Of a DNA stretch of 64,000 nucleotides, positions 11,403 to 31,262 are shown in pieces. The notes under the pieces are model-generated. The model was not told the DNA's origin. It searched no databases and saw only the letters and a program-made list of their open reading frames with translations. How positions within the stretch are numbered: the first letter of the stretch is position 1; each line of letters begins with the position of its first letter. A program made the translations under genes and the position numbers. The stretch lies in the NCBI GenBank assembly GCA_028715985.1, contig JAQUQR010000003.1, positions 1 through 64,000 of the forward strand, read 5' to 3'. The stretch comes from Methanocellales archaeon. Its GTDB lineage: Archaea > Halobacteriota > UBA148.

Positions 11403-14135
11403 ATGGCGGCAAAATCAAAATCTATCCTCAGTGAACTCAAGATGAGCAGACGCACCTTCGCCAAATTGACTGCACTTGGTGCGGCTGCAACTCTTGGAGG
11501 ATACGCAACTTCCAAGAAGTTTACAGGCAAACTATTTGAAAAAGCTGCAGCAGCACCTACGACAAATCTGGTTAAAACCATCTGTTCTCACTGTGCAGTG
11601 GGTTGTGGTGTGCTCGGAAGAGTAGAGGATGGCGAATTAGTTCGAATGGAACCTTGGACAGATCATCCGATAAATGCGGGTGGAATGTGCTCTAAAGGAA
11701 CATCCATAGCAGAGATGGTAAATTCAGAACGTCGTCTTAGGTACCCCATGAAAAAGAAAGATGGAAAATGGGGGCGCATATCTTGGGACGAGGCATTGAC
11801 GGAGATAGCAAATAAACTAAAAGACGTTAGAAGCAGGTATGGACCAGACTCAGTGATGTGGATGGGCTCTGCGAAGATGACCAACGAGGAATGTTATCTT
11901 TTCAGAAAACTCGCTGCATTCTGGGGGACGAACAACGTTGATCACCAGGCGAGAATATGTCACTCCACTACAGTGGCTGGATTGGCTAACACGTGGGGCT
12001 TTGGCGCTCAGACGAATAATGTGAACGATATGCGGCACTCGAAATGCATATTCTTCTGCGGCTCCAATGCGGCAGAGGCACATCCGGTGAGCATGCAGCA
12101 CATCCTTGAGGCAAAGGACCGGGGTGCAAGGATTATCGTCGCTGATCCGAGATTCACGAGAACTGCTGCAAAGGCAGATCTATTTGTGAGGTTCCGTTCT
12201 GGAACCACCGTTCCACTGCTGATGGGAATATGTAACGTTATAATCAACAACAACTGGCACGATAAGAAGTTCATAGATAACAGGACGATAGGATTCGATG
12301 ACTTCTGGGAGGTTTGTAGAGAATATACTCCTGAGGTCGTAGAGGATATCACCTGGGCTCCGGCTGATCAGATACGGGAAATGGCACGAATGCTTTACGA
12401 GAACAAACCCTCGGCAATCGTCTGGGCGATGGGACAGACGCAGCACACCGTAGGAACGAATAATATCCACATGTCGGGAATCCTAAATCTGATCCTCGGT
12501 CATTCCGCCCAATCAGGAGGTGGATGTCAGCCATTTAGGGGGCATGACAACGTGCAGGGCTCTACCGACGCATGCATTCTGGCAGACAATCTGCCAGCCT
12601 ATTATGGTCTGACAGAAGCTGCATGGAAGCACTGGTGTGCAGTTTGGGGTGTTGATTATGACTGGATGCTGGGCAGGTTCGAGAACAAGGAACTGATGGA
12701 AAAGAATGGCTTTACTGTCTCAAGATGGTACGAGGGCGTTCTGAAGCCAGAAGCTGAAATCGATCAGCCACGCAATCTCAAGGTGGTCTTCGTCTGGGGA
12801 CACTCGTTGAACTCCATTACTCAGATGAAGAAGATGAAAGAGGCTATGGAGAAGATCGATCTAATCGTCAGCGTTGACCCACATTCGACCATTGCTACGT
12901 CCTTGGCAGACAGACCAGACGGCATCATAGCACTTCCAGCATCTACGGTATTTGAGAAGGCGGGGAGCGTTACAACTACCGGAAGGCAGGTACAGTGGAG
13001 ATTCAAACTAGTTGAGCCAAGATACGACAGCAGACCAGACATGGAAATCCTGCTGGAGTTGGCAAACAAACTGGGCTTTGGCGCCGAGTACACGAAGAAC
13101 TTCCGCCAGTACCCGGAGGACGTCCTGAGAGAGATGAACAATGGGATGAGATCAATCGGCATGATTGGACAGACCCCCGAGAGAGTAAAGAGGCAGATGG
13201 AGAATTCAGCCACTTTCACCAATAGAGACACTCTGCGTGCTGAAGGTGGCCCTTGTAAGGGAGAGTATTGGGGTCTACCATGGCCATGTTGGACCGATAC
13301 ACACTGCGGAACGCCCATACTTTACGATTCAAGCAAGCCTGTGAGTGATGGAGGGCATGACTTCAGAGTTAGGTGGGGTGTAGCAGTACCTGAGAACGCT
13401 CATAACAAGCACGTCGGAGAAAGCCTACTTCGAGGAGACAATCCAGTACCCCAATCTGGATATGCCTATGACCTTACTGGTACCGAGATAAACAAATATC
13501 TCGCTGCAGGCAATCCACCTACTGGAAGGGGCAGAGCCAGAATCTGGGCATGGAACCTGCCAGACCCAGTTCCAATACACAGGGAGCCAATAGAAAGCCC
13601 AAGACCAGATCTCGTAGATAAGTATCCAACTTATGCGGATGCCCCAAAATTCTTCAGGGTCATGACAGAATACAAAACCTTCCAGCAGTCCAGGAGGAAT
13701 TTGGTTGAAAGATACCCAATTGTCCTGACTACGGGAAGACAAGTTGAGCACATGGGTGGCGGGGCAGAGACAAGATCCTGTCCTTATCTAGTAGAACTTC
13801 AACCAGAGATGTATGTGGAGATCAATCCTGCCCTGGCAGCAGACCTAGGGGTCAAACACTGGGATATGGTGTGGGTTGAGACGTTGAGAGGAAGGTGCAA
13901 AGTGAGAGCATACGTTACTGAGAGAGTGCCCTATGACGAGAAGAGGAAGCTGGTTTTCATGCCATATCACTGGGCAGGGATTTTTGAGGGAGAATCCTAT
14001 GAGGACAGATACCCCAAAGATACCGCCGAAATGGCACTCGGAGACTCGTGCAACATCATCACAGTCGATGGATACGACAGGGTAACACAGATGCAGGAGA
14101 CGAAAGTCTGTCTCTGCAATGTCTATAAGGCATAG
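11403..14135 (+). CDS. fdhA: formate dehydrogenase-type molybdopterin oxidoreductase, catalytic subunit
   Basis: A DMSO-reductase-superfamily enzyme exported folded by the Tat pathway (SRRTFAKL, residues 15-22, then a hydrophobic stretch). An N-terminal [4Fe-4S] site uses Cys61, Cys64, Cys68 and Cys96. The active-site segment is DHQARICHSTTVAGL, with Cys186 and His187 in the positions of selenocysteine and histidine of formate dehydrogenases (RVUH). The C-terminal cofactor-binding barrel is complete (LTTGRQVEHMGGG onward). The ribosome binding site is TAGGAGG before ATG 11403. The operon also encodes its chaperone, a four-cluster subunit and cytochrome b. Formate dehydrogenase is the best call; the metal could be Mo or W, and substrate is inferred from the Cys-His pair. 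Confidence 0.85.
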   Translation: MAAKSKSILSELKMSRRTFAKLTALGAAATLGGYATSKKFTGKLFEKAAAAPTTNLVKTICSHCAVGCGVLGRVEDGELVRMEPWTDHPINAGGMCSKGTSIAEMVNSERRLRYPMKKKDGKWGRISWDEALTEIANKLKDVRSRYGPDSVMWMGSAKMTNEECYLFRKLAAFWGTNNVDHQARICHSTTVAGLANTWGFGAQTNNVNDMRHSKCIFFCGSNAAEAHPVSMQHILEAKDRGARIIVADPRFTRTAAKADLFVRFRSGTTVPLLMGICNVIINNNWHDKKFIDNRTIGFDDFWEVCREYTPEVVEDITWAPADQIREMARMLYENKPSAIVWAMGQTQHTVGTNNIHMSGILNLILGHSAQSGGGCQPFRGHDNVQGSTDACILADNLPAYYGLTEAAWKHWCAVWGVDYDWMLGRFENKELMEKNGFTVSRWYEGVLKPEAEIDQPRNLKVVFVWGHSLNSITQMKKMKEAMEKIDLIVSVDPHSTIATSLADRPDGIIALPASTVFEKAGSVTTTGRQVQWRFKLVEPRYDSRPDMEILLELANKLGFGAEYTKNFRQYPEDVLREMNNGMRSIGMIGQTPERVKRQMENSATFTNRDTLRAEGGPCKGEYWGLPWPCWTDTHCGTPILYDSSKPVSDGGHDFRVRWGVAVPENAHNKHVGESLLRGDNPVPQSGYAYDLTGTEINKYLAAGNPPTGRGRARIWAWNLPDPVPIHREPIESPRPDLVDKYPTYADAPKFFRVMTEYKTFQQSRRNLVERYPIVLTTGRQVEHMGGGAETRSCPYLVELQPEMYVEINPALAADLGVKHWDMVWVETLRGRCKVRAYVTERVPYDEKRKLVFMPYHWAGIFEGESYEDRYPKDTAEMALGDSCNIITVDGYDRVTQMQETKVCLCNVYKA

Positions 14136-17813: not shown

Positions 17814-18134
17814 CTAAAGGCGAGCTTCCTTCAGAGCGCTCTCCAGTTTATGGACCTTATCATAGTATTCTTTTAGCAATCTACGTCCCCTCTCGTTCAG
17901 CTCGGTACTGCCCCCCTCGTTTCCGCCACGCATTGAAATTACGACACCCTCTCCTAACGACTCCTTCATCTTTTGGACGAGGCCCCATGCATGTCTGTAT
18001 GACATTCCAAGTTTTTCTGCAGCCTTAATGATTGAATGCTCTTCGTCTATTGCTTCTAACAATCTTGCTCGACCCTCACCCAATACGGGCAATCCATCCT
18101 TTTCCAGCCATACTTTTGCTTTTAATTCGGTCAT
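17814..18134 (-). CDS. modE: ModE-type molybdate-responsive regulator, DNA-binding domain only
   Basis: A LysR-like winged helix as in the N-terminal domain of ModE: SIIKAAEKLGMSYRHAWGLVQKM is the recognition segment, followed by GGNEGGSTELNERG. At 106 residues it lacks the C-terminal di-MOP (TOBE) molybdate-sensing domains of E. coli ModE. It could sense through another protein or an unknown site; short ModE forms are known in archaea. Its start overlaps the stop of the ABC ATPase gene (18131-18134), so it is the last gene of the transporter operon and its level would track transporter expression. Confidence 0.85.
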   Translation of the reverse strand: MTELKAKVWLEKDGLPVLGEGRARLLEAIDEEHSIIKAAEKLGMSYRHAWGLVQKMKESLGEGVVISMRGGNEGGSTELNERGRRLLKEYYDKVHKLESALKEARL

Positions 18135-19189
18135 TGTTTTAGTATATGGATGGCAGTAGCCTTAAAGGAAACGATAACTTCGTCTCCTTCTTTAAGTCCG
18201 ATATCTTCTAGGGATCGTTTTGTGACCAGCGCAATTATGGGAAAGCTACAATTAACATTCACTTGTATAAGAGCGCCCAAAGGCACTATTTGGGTTATCA
18301 TTCCTTTGAAAGAATTTCTTGCGCTGCTCTTGTCTCTAGAGAGCACAAGTGTGATATCTTCTGGTCTGAGGCACAAACGTACCTTATCGCCGACCGAATA
18401 GTTGGATACAGCCTCTATTCTATGACCTTTAATGCTGACAATGGTAATTCCGTCTTCGTTTGACTCAATCACTCCTTCTAGGATATTCTCCACTCCAACA
18501 AATTCAGCCACTCTTTCGTTTATCGGCTCATTGAATATTTCTCTAGGTGTGCCAACTTGTACAATCTCGCCATCCATCATGATGCCAATTCTATCTGCCA
18601 GAAACATTGCCTCCGTCTGATCATGTGTGACGTGAACCATGGTGATATCCAATTCTTTCTTTATTCGCTTCAGCTCTTCTCGAAGATACTTTCTTGTTCG
18701 TGTGTCTAAGGCAGATAACGGTTCATCCAAAAGTAATATCGGGGGTTCGATGGCAATGGCTCTTGCAATAGCAACCTTCTGCTGCTCTCCGCCACTGAGC
18801 GTATCTGGATACCGATTTGCAAGGTGCGAAATATGCAACAACTCTTCAAGCTCCTCTACCTTACGTTTAATCTTGATTTTGTTCATTTTGCGCAGCTTGA
18901 GACCAAAAGCAATGTTCTCCTCGACCGTCAGAAACGGAAAAAGAGTGTAATCTTGATAGACCATACCTATGTTGCGCTTCCGTGGCGGTATATATGTAAT
19001 GTTTTGATCGTCGATGAATATTCTGCCCTTCTCTGGGCGATAAATGCCTGCTAAAGTCTCCAACAGTACAGATTTACCTGCGCCTGTGGGTCCCAAAATA
19101 ACAAAATACTCGTTATCGTAAATCTCAAGATCAACGTCACGTAAAAAGAACTCACCAAGATCCTTTGAGACGCCCTCTATTTGTATCAT
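18131..19189 (-). CDS. wtpC: molybdate/tungstate ABC transporter ATPase
   Basis: The cytoplasmic ATPase of an oxyanion importer. Walker A GPTGAGKS, signature LSGGEQQKVAIARA and Walker B ILLLDEPLSALD are intact. The C-terminal part has a TOBE/Mop-like segment ending SFKATAIHIL, which in ModC and WtpC homologues can bind molybdate or tungstate and stop transport when the metal is plentiful. ATG 19189 is preferred over GTG 19198 because GGTG precedes it. It lies 24 bp after the permease stop and is coupled to modE. Confidence 0.9.
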   Translation of the reverse strand: MIQIEGVSKDLGEFFLRDVDLEIYDNEYFVILGPTGAGKSVLLETLAGIYRPEKGRIFIDDQNITYIPPRKRNIGMVYQDYTLFPFLTVEENIAFGLKLRKMNKIKIKRKVEELEELLHISHLANRYPDTLSGGEQQKVAIARAIAIEPPILLLDEPLSALDTRTRKYLREELKRIKKELDITMVHVTHDQTEAMFLADRIGIMMDGEIVQVGTPREIFNEPINERVAEFVGVENILEGVIESNEDGITIVSIKGHRIEAVSNYSVGDKVRLCLRPEDITLVLSRDKSSARNSFKGMITQIVPLGALIQVNVNCSFPIIALVTKRSLEDIGLKEGDEVIVSFKATAIHILKQ

Positions 19190-19213
19190 TTTCACCACAT
19201 ATAAGCGTTAAGA

Positions 19214-20014
19214 TTAAAATGCATGAGTAAATCCTCCATACCGTTCAAAAATGAAGAGTGAGACAAGCGATATTATGATGAGAATCGTTGCAGACGCAAT
19301 AGCTAAATTAAGCTCACCACACGACATATTCAAGTATAATGAGATGGGTAAAGTCTCTGTTTTCAATCGTGTTGCACCAGCGACCATAAGTGCAGCGCCA
19401 AACTCTCCTATCCCCTTCGACCATGTTATAACCGAACCTGCTAAGAGTCCATCCTTGGCCATTGGTAGCGTCACCCGCCAAAATGCTTGACTTTCCGTGC
19501 AGCCGAGCGTCTTAGCGACGCGCTCATAACGCGGATTGATTCCTTGAAAAGTCCCTCGAAGTATCCTAAACATATATGGTACGTTGACAAAAAACTGGGC
19601 AATAATGATCCCTGCAGGCATGAAAACAAATACCAGCCCCATTTCAGCAAGCGATTTTCCGAAGTCAGTCGTGCCGAATAGGATCAACAATGCCACTCCA
19701 GCGACCAAAGGCGGTAAAGCTAGGGGGGCATCCAAGAAGGTGTTAACCAAAATCTTGCCCGAGAACTCGTATCTAGCTAGTGCGTATGCCACTGGTATTG
19801 AGATGGCAATACATAGAACGGTGGATACCCCTGAGGTCAGCAAGCTCAATTTTATGGCGAATCGTATTTCCTCTGTAAGCATGCTGTCCATTAACGCCGA
19901 TACCGTAGTGTGCGTGACCAAGCAGATAATTACCGCCAAAATAAAGGCGGTAAGAATTAAACTTGCCGCAATCGTGCTGATTTTAATTTTGGACTCCTTC
20001 AACTCTTCTAACAT
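19214..20014 (-). CDS. wtpB: molybdate/tungstate ABC transporter permease
   Basis: An integral membrane permease with about six transmembrane helices. The cytoplasmic EAA-like loop that contacts the ATPase is visible as RVAKTLGCTESQAFWRVTLP. The segment GEFGAALMVAGATRLKTETL is typical of ModB/WtpB. It lies between the two-headed binding protein and its ATPase with short gaps (29 and 24 bp), so the four genes from 22098 to 17814 form an operon. Confidence 0.9.
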   Translation of the reverse strand: MLEELKESKIKISTIAASLILTAFILAVIICLVTHTTVSALMDSMLTEEIRFAIKLSLLTSGVSTVLCIAISIPVAYALARYEFSGKILVNTFLDAPLALPPLVAGVALLILFGTTDFGKSLAEMGLVFVFMPAGIIIAQFFVNVPYMFRILRGTFQGINPRYERVAKTLGCTESQAFWRVTLPMAKDGLLAGSVITWSKGIGEFGAALMVAGATRLKTETLPISLYLNMSCGELNLAIASATILIIISLVSLFIFERYGGFTHAF

Positions 20015-20043
20015 ATTCTCTCTATTTTTAGTTCTGCTTTTTC

Positions 20044-22098
20044 TTATGGGTTATTTTTCCTTCCCGATATCAGATATGCTACCGCTAGGAGTCCAACGAT
20101 TGCGAAGGCTGCTTCAAATCCCGGTACGCTTGGCTCTGTTAGTGCTGGTGCTGGGGTTAGTATTGGTCTAACTGTAGGTACTGGTGTTGGTTTGGGTGTC
20201 GGTGCTGGTGCAGGAGTAGGTGCTGGCGTTGGCTTGGTTGTTGGCGTTGGCGTAGGTTCTGGTGTCTCTTGTGGGTGCCCTGGGTATGATGGTGTTGGCG
20301 TGGGTGCTGCTATTAGCGTTGGCGTAGGTGTTGACACTGAAATAGCCTCTTCGTATTCTGGATTTGGATAGGCGGTAAAGCCGTGCTTCTCAAAGATGGC
20401 TTTGCCCTCCTCCGAGGCTACGAAATCGACGAACTTTTTCGCCGTATTTGGGTACTTGGTGAAAGTCGTTGTGCCCATAGGTACGATTTGGATCTCATTT
20501 TGTTCTCTGGGTATCTCTATGACATCAATCTCTTTGACAAATTTTACTGTATCCCACCAGTTGATTGATGCATCAGCTTGGCCCATTGCGATCATCACCA
20601 TCACCTCGTTCATGGTAGGCACGGTCGCGATCACATTCGGCCAGACCTTTTCGTAGAGGTTGTTTTTCTTCAATATGTCCACGCCGGTCTTACCCGTTGC
20701 CGCAACCTGAGGATCGCCCCACACGAGTTTTACACCTTTCCTGGCAAGGTCTTCCAGACACATAATATTCGCGGGATTGCCCTTGGGCACCGTAATTACC
20801 GGTATATGGTAGCAGACCATCTGCTGGTAATCGATGAACCCCTTCTCGGCCGCGATTTCGATGTACATGGTCTCCCCAGGCATATAGCAGTCGCCCGCCT
20901 TCGTCAGCTCCATCTGGCTGAGCAGTGCATTGGAGCCAGCATAGTTATACTCTATTTTCACTCCATGTTTCTCATAAAAAATGCTTCCAATCTCGTCCAT
21001 CGGCTTTCGCATCCCGGCGCCGCAATATACCATGAGTGATGTAGCAGTTTCTTCAGGAATGGCTGCAGCTGCCCCGGTCACATAGGGTTTCAGATCCTCT
21101 GGTATACTCCCATTCCCAACAGCAGGCACAATGGCAGGTTGTCCCATATCTGAAAAGATCTTCTGTCCAGGCTTGCTGATGATAAATTTCACGAATTCCA
21201 GACCAAGATCTGCGTTATCTGCATTCTTCGGCACGGTGATGCCGTATACCACCGGCGATCCTATATTTATATTCCCATCCGATGTTTGCAATTTGACCTT
21301 TTTGTAACCATCGGCATGATCCACACTGCTTAGATCTATCTGCACAGGCAAATCGACGAAGGAGAGACCGTGCTGCACGGCTACGCTCCGGTACTCAAAT
21401 GCATAGTCAAGCCCCCCCTCCTCCACAAAGGCCACGAGCTCTACCGATTTAGGTCGTATGTCCACCTTACTGGTGTCTGGTTTCATGTCTTCCGGCGTCT
21501 TTATAAGGTATGTTCCATCCGCCTCCTCACTGATCGTAATTGCAGTTTTGTTAAGGATTAAATCATCGAATATCTGGCCATCACCGTAGTGCAACTCCGC
21601 TAGTTGAAAGACCATTACTGTACGATACCCGCAAGGGTCGAGGTTCGGATTCGAGAAGCCGAATACCACTCCATCTCGACGCAGGATCTCGTACCAGTTT
21701 TCTGGAGTTATTTCTTTTGCATAACTGCTCTTTTCAGGATTGTACGCAAGCACAAGGTCATTAGTCGCGAATCTAACGTCCCAATCGGCAAAATCTGGGT
21801 ACATCATGCTTGGTATGAGTGAGTAATCTGCGGATGCGAGCACTTCTGCTATCTTCCCAACCTCAGTTATCTGTCTTATGGCCTCAACACTGCCATGTGA
21901 CTGGCGTTGCACATCCACTCCTGGGTGCAATGCTTCAAATTGTATAGCCGCCTCTTCCAAAGGCACTGCTAAGCTCCCTGCATGGAAGACCCTTATTATT
22001 TGGGTTCCCTGTGCTCTTGCTGGTATGCAAGGCACTACCAATGTACCCAGAAGTAGTGCGATAACCACCCCTAATATCCTTAATTTTCTTTTTTCCAT
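20044..22098 (-). CDS. two-headed Mo/W-binding protein, WtpA + ModA domains, PGF-CTERM anchor
   Basis: An exported oxyanion-binding protein with two different binding domains. After a signal peptide (about 1-28), residues 30-335 form a WtpA-like domain ([20 protein letters not shown] and AFEYRS hold the carboxylates that make the WtpA metal site six-coordinate). Residues about 350-580 form a ModA-like domain (SLMVYCGAGMRKPMDEIG; YNYAGSNALLSQME). A Thr-Pro repeat linker (about 585-655) leads to [20 protein letters not shown] and a basic tail, the PGF-CTERM signal for archaeosortase anchoring. I start at ATG 22098, because GAAGGG sits well for it; ATG 22104 is alternative. Residues 1-339 are encoded by DNA identical to the gene at 29051. 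Confidence 0.88.
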   Translation of the reverse strand: MEKRKLRILGVVIALLLGTLVVPCIPARAQGTQIIRVFHAGSLAVPLEEAAIQFEALHPGVDVQRQSHGSVEAIRQITEVGKIAEVLASADYSLIPSMMYPDFADWDVRFATNDLVLAYNPEKSSYAKEITPENWYEILRRDGVVFGFSNPNLDPCGYRTVMVFQLAELHYGDGQIFDDLILNKTAITISEEADGTYLIKTPEDMKPDTSKVDIRPKSVELVAFVEEGGLDYAFEYRSVAVQHGLSFVDLPVQIDLSSVDHADGYKKVKLQTSDGNINIGSPVVYGITVPKNADNADLGLEFVKFIISKPGQKIFSDMGQPAIVPAVGNGSIPEDLKPYVTGAAAAIPEETATSLMVYCGAGMRKPMDEIGSIFYEKHGVKIEYNYAGSNALLSQMELTKAGDCYMPGETMYIEIAAEKGFIDYQQMVCYHIPVITVPKGNPANIMCLEDLARKGVKLVWGDPQVAATGKTGVDILKKNNLYEKVWPNVIATVPTMNEVMVMIAMGQADASINWWDTVKFVKEIDVIEIPREQNEIQIVPMGTTTFTKYPNTAKKFVDFVASEEGKAIFEKHGFTAYPNPEYEEAISVSTPTPTLIAAPTPTPSYPGHPQETPEPTPTPTTKPTPAPTPAPAPTPKPTPVPTVRPILTPAPALTEPSVPGFEAAFAIVGLLAVAYLISGRKNNP

Positions 22099-22129
22099 TT
22101 TCATCCCTTCGATATGAAAGTTTTTACTA
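21082..22129 (-). repeat. 1048-bp perfect duplication, copy A
   Basis: Base by base this block matches 30215-31262 (offset 9133). It covers the 5' end and WtpA domain of the two-headed binding protein plus about 30 bp of leader. Identity stops abruptly at the domain boundary on one side and 31 bp before the start codon on the other. A second shared stretch of about 90 bp (20031-20121, differing by one T in a T run) covers the anchor-coding 3' end. Confidence 0.97.
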
Positions 22130-22171
22130 TTCAATGAGCAAAGCAAATTTTGCGCCATTGGGCATAAAGGT

Positions 22172-22254
22172 TTCGGATATCCGAATCATTATGTAATTCG
22201 TTATAAATGAACGGTTTTTATATGGCTTGTTCAACAATATGGCTTGTTCAACAA
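22172..22254 (-). promoter_or_regulatory. promoter and operator region of the WtpA-ModA operon
   Basis: On the minus strand, a TATA box CCATATAAAAA lies at 22213-22223. Just upstream a 17-bp tandem repeat (22220-22236 and 22237-22253) holds two copies of the palindrome TTGTTCAACAA at 22227-22237 and 22244-22254. About 30-40 bp downstream of the TATA box is a perfect 14-bp palindrome, TTCGGATATCCGAA, at 22172-22185, near the expected transcription start. The layout suits an activator site above the TATA box and a repressor site at the start. Binding proteins are unknown. Confidence 0.55.
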
Positions 22255-22297
22255 ACACTTACTTTGAGAGAAAAAATGATTTAGAGTTACTTTACAC

Positions 22298-23353
22298 TCA
22301 TCCACTCACAACGTGCACCGAAGTTGCTTTGAAGGTTGCGTAGACGTCATCACCATTTTGCAGTCCAAGAATCTCACGTGATTGCTTGGTAATAAGCGCA
22401 ACAAGATTGATATCTAGTTTCACCCGGGTTAAAGCGCCTATGCTCTGTAGTTCTCTTATTTTACCACTCATAACGTTCCTAGCACTGCTGTCTCCTTTGC
22501 TTTTTGATATGGTAATGTCTTCGGGTCTAACGAACACTCTCACAGCTCCATCACAATATTCTGTAACAGCGAATATAGTCATGCCAGAATTAATCTCTAT
22601 TTCAGCAATACCATTCTCCTTATTGCGAACATTACCATAGAGTATATTTTCTACACCAACAAAGTCGGCTAATTCTTCGTTCAGTGGTTTGTTAAATATC
22701 TCATAGGGTGTGCCTACTTGCATCAATCGGCCGTTCATCAATACCGCTATCCTATCAGCGAGCACCAACGCCTCCGTCTGATCATGTGTGACGTGAACCA
22801 TGGTGATACCGAATTCTTTCTTCACTAGCTTCAGCTCGTCTCTTAGGTAGTCTTTCGTTCTGGGATCTAAGGCAGATAACGGTTCATCCAAAAGTAATAT
22901 GGGGGGTTCGATGGCAATGGCCCTTGCAATAGCCACCTTCTGTTGCTCTCCGCCACTGAGCGTGCTTGGATAACGATGCGCGAGGTGCGAAATCTTCAGC
23001 CAGTTCATTATATCCTTCAATCTTGCACTATTCGTATTCGATTTTGATGTCCTCTTTAATTTCAAACCGAATGCTATGTTTTGCTCAACTGTCAAATGGG
23101 GGAATAGGGAATAATCTTGATAAATGAAGCCAATTTTCCTCTTTTCTGGGGGAATAAGCGTTACATCGCGCCCCTCAATCCAGACATCTCCTTTATCAGG
23201 GATGTGGAATCCAGCAATGGTCTCAAGAAGTAACGTTTTACCTGCGCCTGTGGGCCCTAAAATAACGAAATATTCTCCTTTTTTTACATCTAGTGTTATA
23301 TCCTTAAGGGAGAACTCTTTCCAATCCTTGCATAAGTCTCTTACTTCTATCAT
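22298..23353 (-). CDS. second molybdate/tungstate ABC transporter ATPase
   Basis: A paralogue of the ATPase at 18131, with Walker A GPTGAGKT, signature LSGGEQQKVAIARA, Walker B ILLLDEPLSALD and a C-terminal TOBE segment ending TFKATSVHV. ATG 23353 overlaps the permease stop as ATGA and has GGAG upstream; the ORF extension to 23401 is unlikely to be translated. The pair 23350/22298 has no binding protein gene of its own; the nearest is the two-headed one 200 bp downstream on the same strand. Confidence 0.9.
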   Translation of the reverse strand: MIEVRDLCKDWKEFSLKDITLDVKKGEYFVILGPTGAGKTLLLETIAGFHIPDKGDVWIEGRDVTLIPPEKRKIGFIYQDYSLFPHLTVEQNIAFGLKLKRTSKSNTNSARLKDIMNWLKISHLAHRYPSTLSGGEQQKVAIARAIAIEPPILLLDEPLSALDPRTKDYLRDELKLVKKEFGITMVHVTHDQTEALVLADRIAVLMNGRLMQVGTPYEIFNKPLNEELADFVGVENILYGNVRNKENGIAEIEINSGMTIFAVTEYCDGAVRVFVRPEDITISKSKGDSSARNVMSGKIRELQSIGALTRVKLDINLVALITKQSREILGLQNGDDVYATFKATSVHVVSG

Positions 23354-24171
23354 TTCTTTCTCCGTTGGGGCATGCGCAATAATATGAATATCACTAGGCA
23401 AATCAGAATCAGCAAAACTGATATGGGTCTTGATGCGCGAAGTCCAAAAGAGGTAAATTTCTCAAATATCAAAATCGGCGCTGATATGGGATGGTATGCA
23501 AGGATCAAAACGGCTGAGAACTCGCTTATTGCACGTCCCCAGCTTAGGATCGCTCCGCTCAGTATGGAAGGAAAAGCAAGTGGGAACGTTATTTCCCGAA
23601 ATGTTCTCCATTGGGATGCGCCTAATGAGCGAGCTACATTCTCTAAACGCGGATCAACCTCTTTAAAACCCTCTGTCGCAGTATCCACTAAATAGGGAAG
23701 GCTCATGAAGAGCATGGCAATCACAATTCCTGAATAAGCATCTGTAACTACAATACTCAACTTTCGAAGCGGTGCACCGATCAATCCATGCCGCATGAAC
23801 ACACCATATAATGCAATTCCGGCGACGACATGCGGGATCATCAAAGGAACATCCACCAAACCCTCTATTATGCTCTTACCCGCGAACTCCTTTCTTGCAA
23901 GAAAATAAGCTAAAGGGACACCGAAAAAGAAAGCGACTAAGGTAGCGATCAGAGCCATGGATATGCTGATACCGATTGACTTTAAAACGACAGGGTCGGT
24001 TGCAGCGGCAGTTAAACCCGAAAAATCTTCCGCTTGTTTGTAAAACATGTTTCCAAGCGTAATAAAAACAAAGGCAACAAGCACTAGTCCTAAAAAAAGG
24101 AAAATGGTAAAAACCCTCTCCTGCTTTATCCTCTCAAATGATAATTTCGAAATTTTTTTCATTGTATTCAT
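23350..24171 (-). CDS. second molybdate/tungstate ABC transporter permease
   Basis: A ModB/WtpB-like permease with about six helices and a cytoplasmic ATPase-contact loop (VARSLGASQWRTFREITFP). The C-terminal helix region ISEFSAVLILAYHPISAPI is the usual family pattern. It is the first gene of the minus-strand transporter run and has its own promoter at 24243-24273. It differs markedly from the permease at 19214, so the two systems are not recent duplicates. Confidence 0.88.
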   Translation of the reverse strand: MNTMKKISKLSFERIKQERVFTIFLFLGLVLVAFVFITLGNMFYKQAEDFSGLTAAATDPVVLKSIGISISMALIATLVAFFFGVPLAYFLARKEFAGKSIIEGLVDVPLMIPHVVAGIALYGVFMRHGLIGAPLRKLSIVVTDAYSGIVIAMLFMSLPYLVDTATEGFKEVDPRLENVARSLGASQWRTFREITFPLAFPSILSGAILSWGRAISEFSAVLILAYHPISAPILIFEKFTSFGLRASRPISVLLILICLVIFILLRMPQRRKK

Positions 24172-24242
24172 TTCCCATACTTTATATCCTTTCTACAATT
24201 TTATCGATATGGGATATTTGTTTCTATTGCATTATCTATATG

Positions 24243-24273
24243 TAATATTTTACCACTCGATAGCTATATAAAC
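24243..24273 (-). promoter_or_regulatory. promoter with candidate Mo/W operator, permease 2
   Basis: On the minus strand GTTTATATAG (about 24263-24272) is a TATA box. It is followed at once by TATCGAGTGGTAAAATATTA (24243-24262). That 20-mer matches the sequence at 31270-31289 below the TATA box of the WtpA-TupA gene in 17 of 20 positions. A shared element directly below TATA boxes of two transporter promoters suggests a common repressor site; ModE is a reasonable candidate. Confidence 0.55.
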
Positions 24274-24377
24274 AAATGACGGCCATATAAACATATTTAT
24301 TCCAAAAGAGGTGAAGTATTTATTTATTACATATCCATTTTATAGCGTTTAAATAGACAACTAATGGGTTATTTATT

Positions 24378-25187
24378 ATGAAAGGCAGGTATGAACTGAA
24401 ATCAAAACTTAAAGGAGAATCCCTTGTCAGAAAAGGGCTGCTGAGACGATACGAAAACCGTGAACAAGTGAGGATTGCACCCAATCTCAATGTCGTCAAG
24501 ATTGGGGGTCATGGCATCATTGATTATGGCGCGCCCGTAGTACTACCTCTTGTAGAGGAGATCGGCGAACTCTCGAAGAATCATCAGCTTCTCGTTGTCA
24601 CGGGGGGTGGTGTGCGTGTCCGTCACATCCTTGACATCGGTCTCGACCTTGGAATGCCGACCGGTGTGCTGGCAGAGCTTGCGGGCAAGATCAGTGAACA
24701 GAATGCGATAATGATGGCGGTCCTTCTCTCAAAGTACACTGCATTGAGAATTCATGTTTCTGATCTTTTAGAGATAACCATGCTACTTGCGATGGGCATT
24801 CTACCGGTCATGCATGGAACTCCTCCCTATGGACTGTACGAATATCCTCCAGAGATCGGGATGATTCCACCTCACCGGACCGATACGGGTACGTTCCTTA
24901 TAGCAGAGGTGTTAGGAGCAAAGAATTGCATACTGTTGAAGAACGTTGATGGGCTTTATACCGAAGATCCTTTTAAAAATCCCGATGCAGAATTGATAGA
25001 GGATATCACCGCACAGGAGCTCATTGAGATGGATATGGAGGACCTCGTTCTTGAGCGAAAGGTTGTTGAACTTCTCCGGGATGCGAATAATATTCATGAA
25101 GTGAAAATAGTCAATGGCCATAAAAGTGGCATGCTTACAAAGGTCCTTCTGGGGGAAAAGGTAGGCACCACCATCAGGTCTGGTTAA
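24378..25187 (+). CDS. molybdenum/tungsten storage protein (MoSto MosA/MosB-like)
   Basis: An amino-acid-kinase-fold protein whose sequence follows Azotobacter MosB/MosA closely: VVKIGGHGIIDYGA, TGGGVRVRHILDIGLDLGMPTG, ILPVMHGTPPYGLYEYPP, GMIPPHRTDTG, LLKNVDGLYTEDP and VKIVNGHKSGMLTKVLLG. MoSto forms a cage that uses ATP to pack polyoxomolybdate or tungstate clusters. Related uridylate kinases lack the PPY and PPHRTDTG features at these places. Only one subunit gene is present, so a homo-oligomer is expected. Its place among four Mo/W transport systems supports storage rather than nucleotide metabolism. Confidence 0.85.
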   Translation: MKGRYELKSKLKGESLVRKGLLRRYENREQVRIAPNLNVVKIGGHGIIDYGAPVVLPLVEEIGELSKNHQLLVVTGGGVRVRHILDIGLDLGMPTGVLAELAGKISEQNAIMMAVLLSKYTALRIHVSDLLEITMLLAMGILPVMHGTPPYGLYEYPPEIGMIPPHRTDTGTFLIAEVLGAKNCILLKNVDGLYTEDPFKNPDAELIEDITAQELIEMDMEDLVLERKVVELLRDANNIHEVKIVNGHKSGMLTKVLLGEKVGTTIRSG

Positions 25188-25215
25188 TTCTTATAAAATT
25201 TGTAAAATTCGTCAT

Positions 25216-25572
25216 TTATGAATCTACCAATTCAATTCTCTTCTGGAGTTCAGTGAAGAGCTCGCTTCCAAGAAGTTCTTCTGTCTGTTCTCTATATTCG
25301 GTCGCCATTTTTTTGATTAATTTGAGGGTACCTTTCAGAGTTGTCGAGATCCCCACTCTTTCAACGCGGGTAATCAAGCCATCCTTCTCCATCATGGCGA
25401 AATAGGGGAGTATATAGTAGTGCGGCACTTCGAGATATTCTGCCAGTTTTCTTGTAGTGGGGAATCTTATTGCGATTGAGCCATCGGTAAAATGGATTGT
25501 AATGCACTTGTCAACACTGAGCATGATCTTTACAGCTGCCTCAAAAATATCCGCTTGGCTAAATGGCTCCAT
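25216..25572 (-). CDS. winged-helix DNA-binding protein
   Basis: A 118-residue protein with a probable winged helix in the middle (TTRKLAEYLEVPHYYILPYFAMMEKDGLITRVERVG, split here at KLAEYLEVPHYY and MMEKDGLITRVERVG) followed by a long helix that could dimerise (KLIKKMATEYREQTEELLG). No metal-binding domain is visible. It sits between the storage protein and the MOT1 permease on the opposite strand, so it could regulate one of these genes. The regulatory target is inferred from position only. Confidence 0.6.
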   Translation of the reverse strand: MEPFSQADIFEAAVKIMLSVDKCITIHFTDGSIAIRFPTTRKLAEYLEVPHYYILPYFAMMEKDGLITRVERVGISTTLKGTLKLIKKMATEYREQTEELLGSELFTELQKRIELVDS

Positions 25573-25620
25573 TCATGTTCACCATTTATTGTAAAAAAAG
25601 GATGGGGTTTTACCCCCCCA

Positions 25621-25854
25621 TCACTCTTCTTTCATGGTGCCTCGTTCCTCTTCAGGCACTGCATGGAGATATACGACCTTAGCACCGACATCCTTTGCGA
25701 TCTGTTCGATCTCGGTCTTTCTGAAGTGTCTCCCCTCAATCTTCAGGTGTGTGTCATCGCCTGTGTTATGAGTTACCGCTACAACCCTGAACATTGGCTG
25801 CCTGACGCCACTTCCTACTTTCATTCTTCCTCGAACATAGATTTTGCTGGCCAT
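25621..25854 (-). CDS. conserved small protein of unknown function
   Basis: A 77-residue protein with a well-placed ribosome binding site (GAGGTGAAAAA) before ATG 25854. It looks like a compact alpha/beta fold: MASKIYVRGRMKVGSG, RVVAVTHNTGDD, then HFRKTEIEQIAKDVGAKVVY. I do not recognise a named family. It shares a short intergenic region with the divergent MOT1 permease, so the two may be co-regulated. Confidence 0.55.
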   Translation of the reverse strand: MASKIYVRGRMKVGSGVRQPMFRVVAVTHNTGDDTHLKIEGRHFRKTEIEQIAKDVGAKVVYLHAVPEEERGTMKEE

Positions 25855-25956
25855 TTTTTCACCTCTTAACAGTTGTTATAACAGTTGGTATATAAAAACT
25901 TACGCTTTTGATGGACAAAAAGATTTTTCTTTATAGTACGAACCAGTTATACCTCG

Positions 25957-27066
25957 ATGGTCCGAATAAAGGATTTTGAATTTAGTTTAGTGGAATTGGC
26001 GGGGGCACTCGGAGATTTCGGTCCACTGAACCCATTTATCATAGGCTACATTGCAGTTTTAGGGTTAGATCCTTCCGGGATTCTCATTGCGATGGGTGTG
26101 ACAAATCTAATTGTCGGTCTAATTTACAAATTACCGTTACCCGTAGAACCTCAGAAGGCAGTCGGTGTAGTGGCTTTAAACGAACACTGGAGCCCTTCCT
26201 TGGTATACGGAACAGGCATAGGGATGGGTCTAATTTGGTTATTTTTAGCCTTCTCAAAATCGATCGGGAAAATTGCAAAAGTGATCCCTCTCTGTGTCAT
26301 CGTGGGTGTGCAGTTTGGCCTCGCTTTAACCTTGCTGAAGGAATCACTTGAACTTATTTGGACCAATATTTTTCTAGCTGCTATGGCACTCATTCTCGTT
26401 ATGTTACTGATTAAAAATAAAAAACTCCCTGCAGGACTTGCTATTTTTTTATTAGGTCTGGCTGTTGTCTTTATCTCCACCCCAGATATCACGTTGGAAT
26501 TTGGATTATATCTACCCAAAATTTATGTGCCTTCTCTTTACGATATGGGGAGAGGTCTTCTGACCGTGGGTATAGCACAGGTGGTTTTAACCCTGTCAAA
26601 TGCGGTCTTAGCTACCAGCCTCGCGGTCAATAACAAATTCCCGGGTAACAGGATTGGAGAGGAGAATTTAGCCAAGAATATAGGATGGATGAACACGATA
26701 TTCCCCTTTTTTGGGGGCATCCCAATGTGTCATGGCGCAGGTGGATTCGCCGCCCAATACTTTTTTGGTGCTCGAACAGGTGGGGCTATGCTGATGGAAG
26801 GCATCTTAGAAATTATTTTAGCCTTTTTCCTGGCAGAATCAGTTTCAACGATCTTTGGTGCCTTCCCCTTATCAATAATCGGCGTGATGCTCTTTTTCGC
26901 CGCGCTGGAACTGGGGAAATTTATGCGGACGCTTGGTAAGACATATGACATGATCATAGCCGTAACGGTTGGTGTAATTTCCCTCTTAACAAACCTTGGA
27001 ATCGGCTTTTTTGCCGGGTTGGCGCTCTGCGTGGTAAGTACAAAATATCTCAAAAAGAGTTTTTAA
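25957..27066 (+). CDS. MOT1-type molybdate/sulfate permease
   Basis: A polytopic membrane protein (about 10-11 helices) of the MOT1 family of molybdate transporters related to SulP. Family signatures are ELAGALGDFGPLNPFIIGY near the start, PLPVEPQKAVG (about 66-76) and GGIPMCHGAGGFAAQYFFGARTGG (about 246-269, cut here for length at PMCHGAGGFAAQYFFG). It lacks the STAS domain of sulfate SulP proteins. It uses no ATP, so it probably covers uptake at a different affinity range from the ABC systems. A TATA-like GTATATAAAAA lies about 60 bp upstream. Confidence 0.85.
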   Translation: MVRIKDFEFSLVELAGALGDFGPLNPFIIGYIAVLGLDPSGILIAMGVTNLIVGLIYKLPLPVEPQKAVGVVALNEHWSPSLVYGTGIGMGLIWLFLAFSKSIGKIAKVIPLCVIVGVQFGLALTLLKESLELIWTNIFLAAMALILVMLLIKNKKLPAGLAIFLLGLAVVFISTPDITLEFGLYLPKIYVPSLYDMGRGLLTVGIAQVVLTLSNAVLATSLAVNNKFPGNRIGEENLAKNIGWMNTIFPFFGGIPMCHGAGGFAAQYFFGARTGGAMLMEGILEIILAFFLAESVSTIFGAFPLSIIGVMLFFAALELGKFMRTLGKTYDMIIAVTVGVISLLTNLGIGFFAGLALCVVSTKYLKKSF

Positions 27067-27102
27067 AATCCCGTATGCGATTGCGCCTTAAGGCATTAAT
27101 TA

Positions 27103-28164
27103 TTACTGATTTTTTACCACATGCACCGAGGTTGCCTTAAAGCTTGCATAGACCTGGTCATCTACCGCGAGTTTGAGCTCTTCTGCTGCCTGTTTTGTAA
27201 TCAGTGCTACGAGCGTATTCTCGAGTTTTACCCGAACCAACGGTCCAACTGGTGTGATCTTCAAAATCGTCGAAGGCAACACATTCCGCAGACTGCTTTT
27301 TCCGAGCTCCTTTGAGAGAATGATACTTTCCGCTCTGAGGCAGAACAGAACAGCTTCTCCGGCAGGGAAGGGAGATACGCAGGTTACTTTAAATCCCCCG
27401 ATATCGACAACCGTTACCCCGCCCTCATTCGACTCCACGACGCTCGGTACGATGTTCTCCACACCGACGAATCTCGCAATCTCTCCATTTTTAGGCGAAT
27501 AAAATATCTCATGTGGCTGCCCAACTTGACTAATCTCCCCTTTCATCATCACCGCGATTCGATCTGCGAGGCGTTGACCCTGCAGTCTGTCGTGCGTAGA
27601 TATAATGATCGTGGTCTTATATTCTCGATTGATATGTGCGATCAATTCTTCTATCTTTTCCGTGGCGATGGGGTCGAGATTCGCAGTTGGCTCATCCAGC
27701 AACAACACTTCAGGCTCTGTTACGATTGCCCTTGCCAGTGCCACTCGCTGGGCCTCGCCCCCTGACAGCGTCGGCGCAATCCTCTTTGCGTAGTCCAATA
27801 GTCCAACTGTATCCAAGGCGTGTTTAACCTTTTTATCGATGCTATATCGCCCAATGCCTCGGAACTTCAACCCATACGTGACGTTGTCATATACACTAGT
27901 TTTGAAGAGGGCAGGTTTTTGGAACAGCATCGACATCTTTCTGCGTATTTCTCTTCTTCTTTTTGAAGATGCATTGGCGCCGTTAAAAAATATCTCCCCT
28001 GATGTAGGCATATCCAGAAGGTCAATAAGACGTAAAAGCGTCGTCTTACCAGAACCGGTGGGTCCAATGATGGTAAATATCTCGCCTTTTTCTATCGTTA
28101 GGTTAATATCCTTTAAAATTTCTTTTTCACCGTATCTCTTGGATAACCGCTTTACTTCTATCAT
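27103..28164 (-). CDS. tupC: tungstate ABC transporter ATPase TupC
   Basis: Walker A GPTGSGKTTLLR, signature LSGGEAQRVALARA and Walker B VLLLDEPTANLDP are intact, and the C-terminal TOBE segment ends SFKATSVHVVK. The N-terminal ATPase part differs from the two WtpC-like ATPases upstream (for example LFQKPALFKTSVYDNV in place of YQDYTLFP). It is separated by 7 bp from the TupB-type permease gene, which gives its specificity assignment. Confidence 0.9.
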   Translation of the reverse strand: MIEVKRLSKRYGEKEILKDINLTIEKGEIFTIIGPTGSGKTTLLRLIDLLDMPTSGEIFFNGANASSKRRREIRRKMSMLFQKPALFKTSVYDNVTYGLKFRGIGRYSIDKKVKHALDTVGLLDYAKRIAPTLSGGEAQRVALARAIVTEPEVLLLDEPTANLDPIATEKIEELIAHINREYKTTIIISTHDRLQGQRLADRIAVMMKGEISQVGQPHEIFYSPKNGEIARFVGVENIVPSVVESNEGGVTVVDIGGFKVTCVSPFPAGEAVLFCLRAESIILSKELGKSSLRNVLPSTILKITPVGPLVRVKLENTLVALITKQAAEELKLAVDDQVYASFKATSVHVVKNQ

Positions 28165-28171
28165 GATCGAT

Positions 28172-28858
28172 CTACCTCTGTTGAACCCGGTTCAGAATTA
28201 TATTTATAACGAACGCTAAGGACATGAGAATAATGCCAAGGGCCAGTGAGAACTCGATATTACCCATCGAGGTTTCGAGTGCGATCGCGGTCGTCAGCAC
28301 CCTTGTGTAGCCCCTTATATTTCCACCAATCATCATTGCAGCACCCACCTCGGATATTGCACGGCTATATCCTGTGATAACGGCAGCTAAAATTGCATAA
28401 CGTGCCTCTTTTATGGTTGCTCGGATGGCCTGAAATTCTGTTGCGCCCAGAGAAACGATCGTATCTCTGATCGTTTTGTCAACTCCACTCAGGGCGGAGA
28501 TGGTTAATCCAGTCATGATGGGGGCTATTAATATGACCTGTCCGATAACCATACCTGTAGGTGTAAAGAAGAATCCAAGAAATCCAAGAGGGCCTGCTCG
28601 TGAAAGTAATAAGAAGACCAGAAGCCCAATGACTACTGTTGGAAGTGCAAAAAGCGTTTGGATGATATTTATTAACCATCGCTTTCCCCGAAATTCATGA
28701 AAATGGATAAAACTCCCGGTTGGGATGAATATTAGAGATGTTATGATCATAGAAGCTATTGAAATACGTAACGTTAGGAGCGTTATATCCATAACCTCTG
28801 GATCAAGTGTGACAATGAGTTCGATTGCTTTTATTAAGCCGTTTATAATCTCGTTCAT
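28172..28858 (-). CDS. tupB: tungstate ABC transporter permease TupB
   Basis: A 228-residue permease with five to six helices. LPTVVIGLLVFLLLSRAGPLG and VSLGATEFQAIRATIKEARY (ATPase-contact loop) are typical of TupB, which is shorter than ModB/WtpB. AISEVGAAMMIGGNIRGYTRV follows. It lies 192 bp downstream of the WtpA-TupA binding protein gene and directly before tupC. Confidence 0.9.
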   Translation of the reverse strand: MNEIINGLIKAIELIVTLDPEVMDITLLTLRISIASMIITSLIFIPTGSFIHFHEFRGKRWLINIIQTLFALPTVVIGLLVFLLLSRAGPLGFLGFFFTPTGMVIGQVILIAPIMTGLTISALSGVDKTIRDTIVSLGATEFQAIRATIKEARYAILAAVITGYSRAISEVGAAMMIGGNIRGYTRVLTTAIALETSMGNIEFSLALGIILMSLAFVINIILNRVQQR

Positions 28859-29050
28859 GTCAAAACCTCAATGAAAAATTGTAATCTTTGATTATTGCAC
28901 CCTCGGATATACTATATATTCTGTTATAAACCCTATGCACATTAAGGCTGCACTGCAAAACAAAAGGCAGATTTTTAAGGTTCCACTATTTTTTTGGAAA
29001 AAAATTAGAAATGGGGGAAGAAACACCTCCCCCTTGGTTCTGCTTTTTTC

Positions 29051-31231
29051 TTATGGGTTATTTTTCCTTCCCGATATCAGATATGCTACCGCTAGGAGTC
29101 CAACGATTGCGAAGGCTGCTTCAAATCCGGGTATACTTGGTGCAGGCGTTGGAGCTGGTGCTGGGGTTAGTATTGGTCTGACTGTTGGCATTGGTGTGGG
29201 TTTCGGTGTAGGTGCTGGAGTTGGCGCTGGCGTTGGAGCAGGAGTGGGTGCTGGTGTTGGTTTGGGTGTAGGTGTAGGCGTTGGAGCAGGAGTTGGTGCT
29301 GGCGTTGGTGCAGGCGTTGTTACAGGATACGTTGCTGGCATCGCACACTCCTCCCATGTTGGGCAGCCGAATAATTCTTTACACGCCCCACCCGAAAGCG
29401 GATAGAAGAGCGGGCTTCCATACGTATCAACACCGTACTCGGCAATGATCTTCTGAGCCTCTTCAGATATCAAGAAGTTAACGAAATTGTTAGCCATGGT
29501 GATGTTGGTATAGGGGTGGGTTTCTGGATTTATTGCGATCACACCATAGACGTTGAGTAGGATATCCCCCTTATCAACAATCGGCACGAGATCTATATCA
29601 CCCTTAAATGCGAGGAATGTGCCAATATCTGACAGTGTGTACGCAGACTTTTCATTTGCCATGATCAGCGTGGGTCCCATGCCACTTCCAGCTTCAACAT
29701 ACCAATTTCCGGATTTTCTGATCTCTTCATAGTCAAAACCAGCATTTGCCCACACAGCCTTCTCCTTGGCGTGTGTGCCAGAGTTATCGCCTCGTGAAAC
29801 GAACTGGATTTGTGGGTTGGCTTTCCCCTTTTCCATTATCGTTTTGAACGCATCCTCAGGCTTCATCCCCTTGACTCCTGCCGGATCGCTTTCAGGACCC
29901 ACGATGACGAAATAGTTGTAGGCGAAGCATCTTCGGTTTATCCCGTGTCCTTCTGCCACGAACTGATCTTCTCTTGCTCTGTCATGTATGGTTAATACAT
30001 CCACATCTCCCCGTTGTCCGAATTCTAGTGCCTTTCCGGTTCCAGCATAAACCATGCGTAGGTCTGCATTGTATTTCTCGTCAAAGACAGGCTTCAATGC
30101 ATCGAGCAGCCCGGTATCGTAGAGACTCGTAGTCGTTGCCAGCATCAAAGTTTGCTTTGGTCCAGTGGATATTGGTACAGGCATTGGCGTTGGTGCTGCA
30201 GATACCTCAGCTAAATAGGGTTTCAGATCCTCTGGTATACTCCCATTCCCAACAGCAGGCACAATGGCAGGTTGTCCCATATCTGAAAAGATCTTCTGTC
30301 CAGGCTTGCTGATGATAAATTTCACGAATTCCAGACCAAGATCTGCGTTATCTGCATTCTTCGGCACGGTGATGCCGTATACCACCGGCGATCCTATATT
30401 TATATTCCCATCCGATGTTTGCAATTTGACCTTTTTGTAACCATCGGCATGATCCACACTGCTTAGATCTATCTGCACAGGCAAATCGACGAAGGAGAGA
30501 CCGTGCTGCACGGCTACGCTCCGGTACTCAAATGCATAGTCAAGCCCCCCCTCCTCCACAAAGGCCACGAGCTCTACCGATTTAGGTCGTATGTCCACCT
30601 TACTGGTGTCTGGTTTCATGTCTTCCGGCGTCTTTATAAGGTATGTTCCATCCGCCTCCTCACTGATCGTAATTGCAGTTTTGTTAAGGATTAAATCATC
30701 GAATATCTGGCCATCACCGTAGTGCAACTCCGCTAGTTGAAAGACCATTACTGTACGATACCCGCAAGGGTCGAGGTTCGGATTCGAGAAGCCGAATACC
30801 ACTCCATCTCGACGCAGGATCTCGTACCAGTTTTCTGGAGTTATTTCTTTTGCATAACTGCTCTTTTCAGGATTGTACGCAAGCACAAGGTCATTAGTCG
30901 CGAATCTAACGTCCCAATCGGCAAAATCTGGGTACATCATGCTTGGTATGAGTGAGTAATCTGCGGATGCGAGCACTTCTGCTATCTTCCCAACCTCAGT
31001 TATCTGTCTTATGGCCTCAACACTGCCATGTGACTGGCGTTGCACATCCACTCCTGGGTGCAATGCTTCAAATTGTATAGCCGCCTCTTCCAAAGGCACT
31101 GCTAAGCTCCCTGCATGGAAGACCCTTATTATTTGGGTTCCCTGTGCTCTTGCTGGTATGCAAGGCACTACCAATGTACCCAGAAGTAGTGCGATAACCA
31201 CCCCTAATATCCTTAATTTTCTTTTTTCCAT
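29051..31231 (-). CDS. two-headed Mo/W-binding protein, WtpA + TupA domains, PGF-CTERM anchor
   Basis: Same plan as the protein at 20044, but the second head is TupA-like. Residues 1-339 are identical to the other protein at DNA level (signal peptide plus WtpA domain). Residues about 355-615 carry [31 protein letters not shown] and [12 protein letters not shown], the oxyanion-binding segments of TupA. A Thr-Pro-Ala repeat linker (about 630-690) leads to [20 protein letters not shown] and the same basic tail, a PGF-CTERM signal. The start is ATG 31231, six bases after ATG 31237. It is followed by tupB and tupC. The TupA head should feed TupBC; the partner of the WtpA head is unclear. Confidence 0.88.
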
Positions 31232-31262
31232 TTTCATCCCTTCGATATGAAAGTTTTTACTA
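30215..31262 (-). repeat. 1048-bp perfect duplication, copy B
   Basis: Identical to 21082-22129. The identity begins where the WtpA domain ends and runs through the start codon into the leader. Promoters above the two copies are unrelated, so the genes keep separate regulation despite identical 5' coding halves. Confidence 0.97.

Follow-up and report, generated by a model that had tools for sequence, protein, structure and literature searches.

The stretch of DNA analyzed here (hereafter the window) comprises 64,000 nt of contig JAQUQR010000003.1 from a Methanocellales archaeon (assembly GCA_028715985.1; genome in 19 contigs) and encodes two proteins that each combine two substrate-binding domains ("heads") of different molybdenum/tungsten (Mo/W) transporter families in a single chain. 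Both genes are intact open reading frames (ORFs) on the minus strand (20044–22104 and 29051–31237), and the ATG of the sequence MKMEKRKL, located at 22104 and 31237, represents the better start. The first fused gene, whose ORF opens at 22158, encodes 686 amino acids from the ATG at 22104 in the order signal peptide, WtpA head (21082–22005), ModA-like head (20359–21042), Thr-Pro linker and PGF-CTERM anchor (20068–20343). The second fused gene (728 amino acids) exhibits the same order, with a WtpA head (30215–31138), a TupA head (29372–30157) and the linker with the PGF-CTERM anchor (29075–29329). Both fusion junctions are in frame and located at domain boundaries.

The two WtpA heads are recognized by the NCBIfam models NF003196 (443 and 437 bits; cut-off 355) and TIGR03730 (380 and 375 bits; cut-off 243), and their matches in PDB are the WtpA structures 3k6u (359 bits), 2onk and 3cij. 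The ModA-like head exceeds the cut-off of TIGR01256 (98 bits; cut-off 62.5), matches the ModA structures 8zj6 and 4kd5 weakly (57 and 50 bits) and is most closely related to the stand-alone ModA of genome G072 (78% amino-acid identity). The second head of the other protein matches the TupA structure 3lr1 (215 bits) and scores 200 bits with NF041772, below the cut-off of 400, which seems too strict for archaeal TupA, because stand-alone archaeal TupAs encoded beside tupBC score 190–199; the head is TupA-like by model and, judged by motif and genomic context, probably a TupA. Pfam detects the PGF-CTERM anchor in both proteins (PF18204, 28 and 29 bits; cut-off 18.8), with an additional match of 27 bits to TIGR04126 in the first, and in both a PGF motif, a hydrophobic stretch and a basic C-terminal end stand behind the Thr-rich linker. 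Domain order and the ModA- and TupA-like character of the second heads had been proposed in an earlier note on this DNA and are borne out by the NCBIfam, Pfam and PDB matches. Both are genuine two-headed, anchored substrate-binding proteins with two complete domains of different families per chain.

From mobB to the genes past modE, the window and the genomes G001 to G004 are collinear. Its organization is mobB-wtpA-wtpB-ATPase-modE in G004 and G002, mobB-tupA-tupB-tupC-modE in G001, mobB-tupA-tupB-tupC-...-MoSto-(80-residue ATPase remnant)-modE in G003, and mobB-[WtpA::TupA]-tupB-tupC-MOT1-...-MoSto-wtpB-wtpC-[WtpA::ModA]-modB-ATPase-modE in the window. One and the same signal peptide fronts the WtpA of G002, the TupA of G001 and G003 and both fusions of the window; it was not found elsewhere in those genomes nor in seven other genomes of the order that were searched. 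A linker stretch is moreover common to the TupA of G003 and the WtpA of G002. The identical signal peptide and the shared linker on different heads therefore document that heads have been exchanged within a constant signal-peptide/anchor frame at a single syntenic locus of the genus, which agrees with the interchangeable modular build that the earlier note had envisaged. A related arrangement is found in family f8, where the operon wtpA-wtpB-wtpC-modA-modB-modC (L086) has the gene order that the window would show without its second copy of WtpA and without the tup block; the same family also holds the closest ModA (G072).

The WtpA module of the two fused genes is an exact direct repeat of 1,048 bp (21082–22129 and 30215–31262, minus strand) that begins 25 bp ahead of the ATG, ends with the head's last codon and shows no mismatch. 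The two WtpA heads are thus one identical DNA sequence and not two versions, a point on which the earlier note had not remarked. The 3' end of the frame, comprising the linker end, the PGF-CTERM anchor and the stop codon, is likewise present twice (20031–20208 and 29037–29218, minus strand), with 90% identity over 182 bp. Between the wtp and the mod operon, the two ATPases differ by a synonymous divergence (dS) of about 2, whereas the WtpA module is identical, and we therefore infer that the module has been copied or converted very recently. The leader of the gene at 29051–31237 is homologous to the leaders in the same slot of the relatives (wtpA in G002, tupA in G001 and G003), in contrast to that of the gene at 20044–22104, which is unrelated beyond 25 bp. 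Because leader homology is restricted to the former gene, copying most likely proceeded from the mobB-side slot, with 30215–31262 as the ancestral and 21082–22129 as the recipient copy, to the modA locus. A programmed inversion or phase variation via the repeats was rejected, since direct repeats would delete 9.1 kb instead of inverting it and there is no other sign of a programmed system.

A search of archaeal genomes for WtpA domains fused to ModA or TupA, as suggested in the earlier note, was performed in 247 genomes of the phylum and in two families (f8, 51 genomes; f13, 100 genomes), and WtpA/TupA fusions were indeed found. The order WtpA-TupA is present in G034 and G043, where the fusion precedes wtpB-wtpC, and in G087, which together represent two families other than that of the window, and G339, from one of these two, encodes a three-headed WtpA-TupA-TupA protein of 887 residues (L085:2003-4663; G339:C147) with a hydrophobic, anchor-like C-terminal end. 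The reverse order TupA-WtpA was detected as a full-length match in 28 of the 100 f13 genomes, distributed over eight genera with 50–60% identity, and is located beside tupB-tupC in most loci read. At the f13 loci L089, L090 and L095 a stand-alone TupA gene adjoins the fusion gene. WtpA/TupA fusions are thus not confined to the genome of the window and are known from at least three further families. A wider distribution was also looked for in the case of WtpA::ModA, and the 247 genomes of the phylum and the 51 of f8 yielded no example besides that of the window; a contig search with the fused protein as query retrieved only a ModA in an Actinomycetota record.

In the TupA tree, the head from the window groups with stand-alone TupAs of its own genus (support 99), the heads of the f8 and f9 fusions form one distant clade and those of f13 another group. 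In the WtpA tree, the heads of the window group with the WtpA of G002 (99/95). The minimum number of changes between the fused and the stand-alone state is six on the TupA tree and four on the WtpA tree. Based on tree placement and these minimum changes, the distribution can be read as the result of at least three independent fusion histories.

The ABC transporter genes around the two fusions are all located on the minus strand. The TupA head is encoded together with a TupB-type permease (28172–28858; NF038017, 248 bits; NF041773, 176 bits, below cut-off) and an ABC ATPase in the TupC position (27103–28164), in the same order as in G001 and G003. The WtpA::ModA gene adjoins a ModB-type permease (19214–20014; TIGR01581, 251 bits; cut-off 210), an ABC ATPase of the WtpC type with a TOBE domain (18131–19198; NF040840, 467 bits) and a ModE-like DNA-binding domain (17814–18134; TIGR00637, 73 bits, below the cut-off of 98.5). 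Between the two fusions lie a WtpB-type permease (23350–24171; NF040839, 300 bits, below the cut-off of 340) and a WtpC-type ATPase (22298–23401; NF040840, 453 bits). This WtpB is the sole one in the genome, and neither wtpA nor another binding protein gene stands in front of it.

Uptake, storage and cofactor genes form one island. A homolog of the molybdenum storage protein (MoSto; 24378–25187, plus strand; 196 bits to 2ogx_B) lies between the tup operon and the wtp operon; G003 has one too. The gene of a MOT1-type molybdate transporter (25957–27066, plus strand; PF16983, 145 bits) lies inside the ABC cluster, and MOT1 genes also occur near the TupA-WtpA fusions of f13. Beyond modE follows a molybdopterin oxidoreductase (11403–14135, plus strand) that probably uses the imported metal; an Fe-S/FlpD-domain protein is encoded upstream of it and a cytochrome b561-type protein downstream. 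A third, single-headed WtpA with 50% identity is encoded on contig C15 (L032, G000:C15, 3009-5563); no permease is found nearby, and the neighboring genes encode two proteins that are predicted to be exported or membrane-bound and match no NCBIfam model.

In the numbering of A. fulgidus, WtpA is taken to hold its ligand by a pair of Ser, by Asp153 and by an acidic residue located at Glu218 or close to it. The WtpA heads of the window have both Ser and the Asp, with a Ser at the E218 position and a Glu 17 alignment columns later in the motif F-E-Y. Because the Glu is absent at the E218 position and present 17 columns later, an octahedral geometry of this head should not simply be assumed. Our comparison of WtpAs, including L009, L014, AF0094 and MA0280, located the Glu at the E218 position in 10 of 50 sequences (with Ile in F-I-Y) and in F-E-Y in 34 of 50 (with Ser or Gly at 218). 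The tree implies at least four switches between the two types, and the window and its sister G002 are of different types; the metal ligand seems to move between two places.

The TupA head of the window harbors all four published ligand features of TupA (TTTS, R118, T124 and D170; PMC5517513), and the WtpA heads have likewise retained their motif residues. Comparison by eye of the ModA head with the ligand residues of E. coli ModA (PMC7604516) revealed that the second Ser is kept and the first replaced by Gly, which was also seen in stand-alone members of the same clade. The ratio of nonsynonymous to synonymous substitutions (dN/dS) between the heads and their stand-alone relatives is about 0.1 in all cases, a value that may largely reflect divergence predating the fusions.

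We interpret the two gene products as anchored two-headed importer proteins whose C-terminal head serves the adjacent permease and whose WtpA head serves WtpBC, built by the joining of WtpA to TupA and subsequent copying onto ModA, a reading whose chances we judge to be slightly better than even. In its first step, the insertion of the tup block between wtpA and wtpB would have produced the fusion of WtpA with TupA in the slot on the mobB side. The orphan WtpB without a binding protein in front fits such an insertion, which would in turn explain why WtpA is joined to TupA. The WtpA module, comprising leader, signal peptide and head, would then have been copied onto modA, thereby replacing ModA's own signal peptide. 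Each head is predicted to bind its oxyanion; the C-terminal head would dock on and load the adjacent permease (ModB or TupB), and the WtpA heads would load the orphan WtpB-WtpC pair. A single anchored chain could thereby supply two importers from a pair of oxyanion sites kept close to the membrane. More generally, multi-headed Mo/W-binding proteins might represent a recurrent class of archaeal uptake systems, in which one anchored chain loads several ABC permeases and species retune uptake by shuffling heads between shared signal-peptide and Thr-Pro/PGF-CTERM anchor modules; this extension we propose tentatively and with somewhat more doubt than confidence.

Several points weaken this reading. 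The ModA head falls into a divergent clade of its family (GAGMRKPMDEI), and its ligand is deduced from the neighboring ModB. Structure prediction of both proteins, based on alignments of the window proteins and one ModA, was uninformative, with predicted local distance difference test (pLDDT) values of 33 and 32. The single-headed WtpA on contig C15 could serve WtpBC instead of the fused heads. In f13, the extra WtpA head may not feed WtpBC, because the fusion is located beside tupBC, some genomes with the fusion also have a separate wtpABC (L070, L095) and 6 of the 16 WtpA heads from its fusions no longer have the acid of F-E-Y. The extra TupA head of the f8 and f9 fusions harbors ATGS instead of TTTS. 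The older fusions thus show drift in whichever head differs in type from the downstream permease, whereas the cognate head has stayed intact. This drift provides the best argument for an alternative scenario, together with the separate wtpABC in f13, namely that the extra head is a tethered buffer, a selectivity filter or an occupancy sensor, which concentrates an oxyanion locally or strips off the competitor, and that only the cognate head docks. The WtpB without an adjacent WtpA argues in the opposite direction, as do the motifs in the window, which are unaltered in both the WtpA and the TupA heads, and we regard this scenario as rather unlikely.

It is still less probable that recombination between repeated signal-peptide and Thr-Pro-linker DNA produced the fusions as tolerated by-products, in which the linkage plays no role and either head functions like a stand-alone one. 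The shared modules and the exact 1,048-bp copy are indicative of active recombination, and fused and single-headed forms alternate among the species of the genus, but TupA-WtpA has been kept at the stated identity over eight f13 genera, and similar fusions arose several times, which is hard to reconcile with a neutral by-product. A misassembly of the perfect repeat on one contig of a 19-contig genome, by misjoining or by the collapse of two diverged wtpA copies, was rejected as the source of the fusions and is very improbable, given the in-frame junctions at domain boundaries, the synteny of the flanks with three relatives, the occurrence of WtpA-TupA fusions in unrelated genomes and the fact that mis-resolved direct repeats would swap flanks, not create fusions. 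The perfect identity of the repeat could partly stem from assembly collapse, which would not easily explain the fusions themselves.

How archaea distinguish molybdate from tungstate is an open question, as is the reason why many of them have three ABC systems for two ions that are nearly identical. Binding proteins that physically join these systems make the discrimination testable. The genus offers a rare view of binding domains that are swapped and joined in a fixed surface-protein frame, and the relatives with a single head at this locus serve as natural controls. The earlier note knew of no description of such fusions, and none was encountered in our literature search, although subscription papers were mostly outside its range and absence is no proof: the accessible parts of the literature treating ModA, WtpA and TupA together do not mention them, and that on tandem or fused substrate-binding domains yielded work of the GlnPQ type. 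The interpretation of that note thus stands in part, with respect to domain order, head identity, modular build and the lack of a prior description in the literature searched; the identity of the two WtpA modules and the recurrence of WtpA/TupA fusions in other families are to be added to it.

Compared with WtpABC (2onk, 3cij, 3k6u), the first head qualifies as a complete WtpA, both by the family model and by its solved relatives, and has the conserved Asp and Ser positions, but it is fused to a second head and differs at the E218 position of A. fulgidus, where it has Ser, with its Glu in F-E-Y. The second fusion resembles TupABC (3lr1; D. alaskensis TupA, PMC5517513) in the equivalents of TTTS, R118, T124 and D170 and in its proximity to TupB and TupC, but harbors a WtpA head at the N-terminus instead of a bare signal peptide. 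The first fusion shares with ModABC the attained TIGR01256 cut-off and the adjacent ModB permease; it differs in its membership of a divergent clade that lacks the first Ser among the ligands of E. coli ModA, in its fusion to WtpA and in its WtpC-like ATPase. Another archaeal fusion of a Mo/W-related periplasmic-binding-protein (PBP) domain is known from MoeA1 (PMC11733289), which, in contrast, is likely a cytoplasmic cofactor enzyme with one PBP domain and no surface binding protein. The nearest mechanistic parallel is GlnPQ of Lactococcus, in which tandem binding domains act independently of each other and deliver to a single permease (PMC8025302). Both systems have two binding domains of different specificity per chain, held by a linker at the membrane. 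The domains of GlnPQ are fused to their own permease in one importer, whereas the fused proteins of the window combine heads from different transporter families with a PGF-CTERM anchor, and their permeases are encoded by separate genes of different families. Tandem binding domains are hence already known; new are their combination, the anchor and the recurrence.

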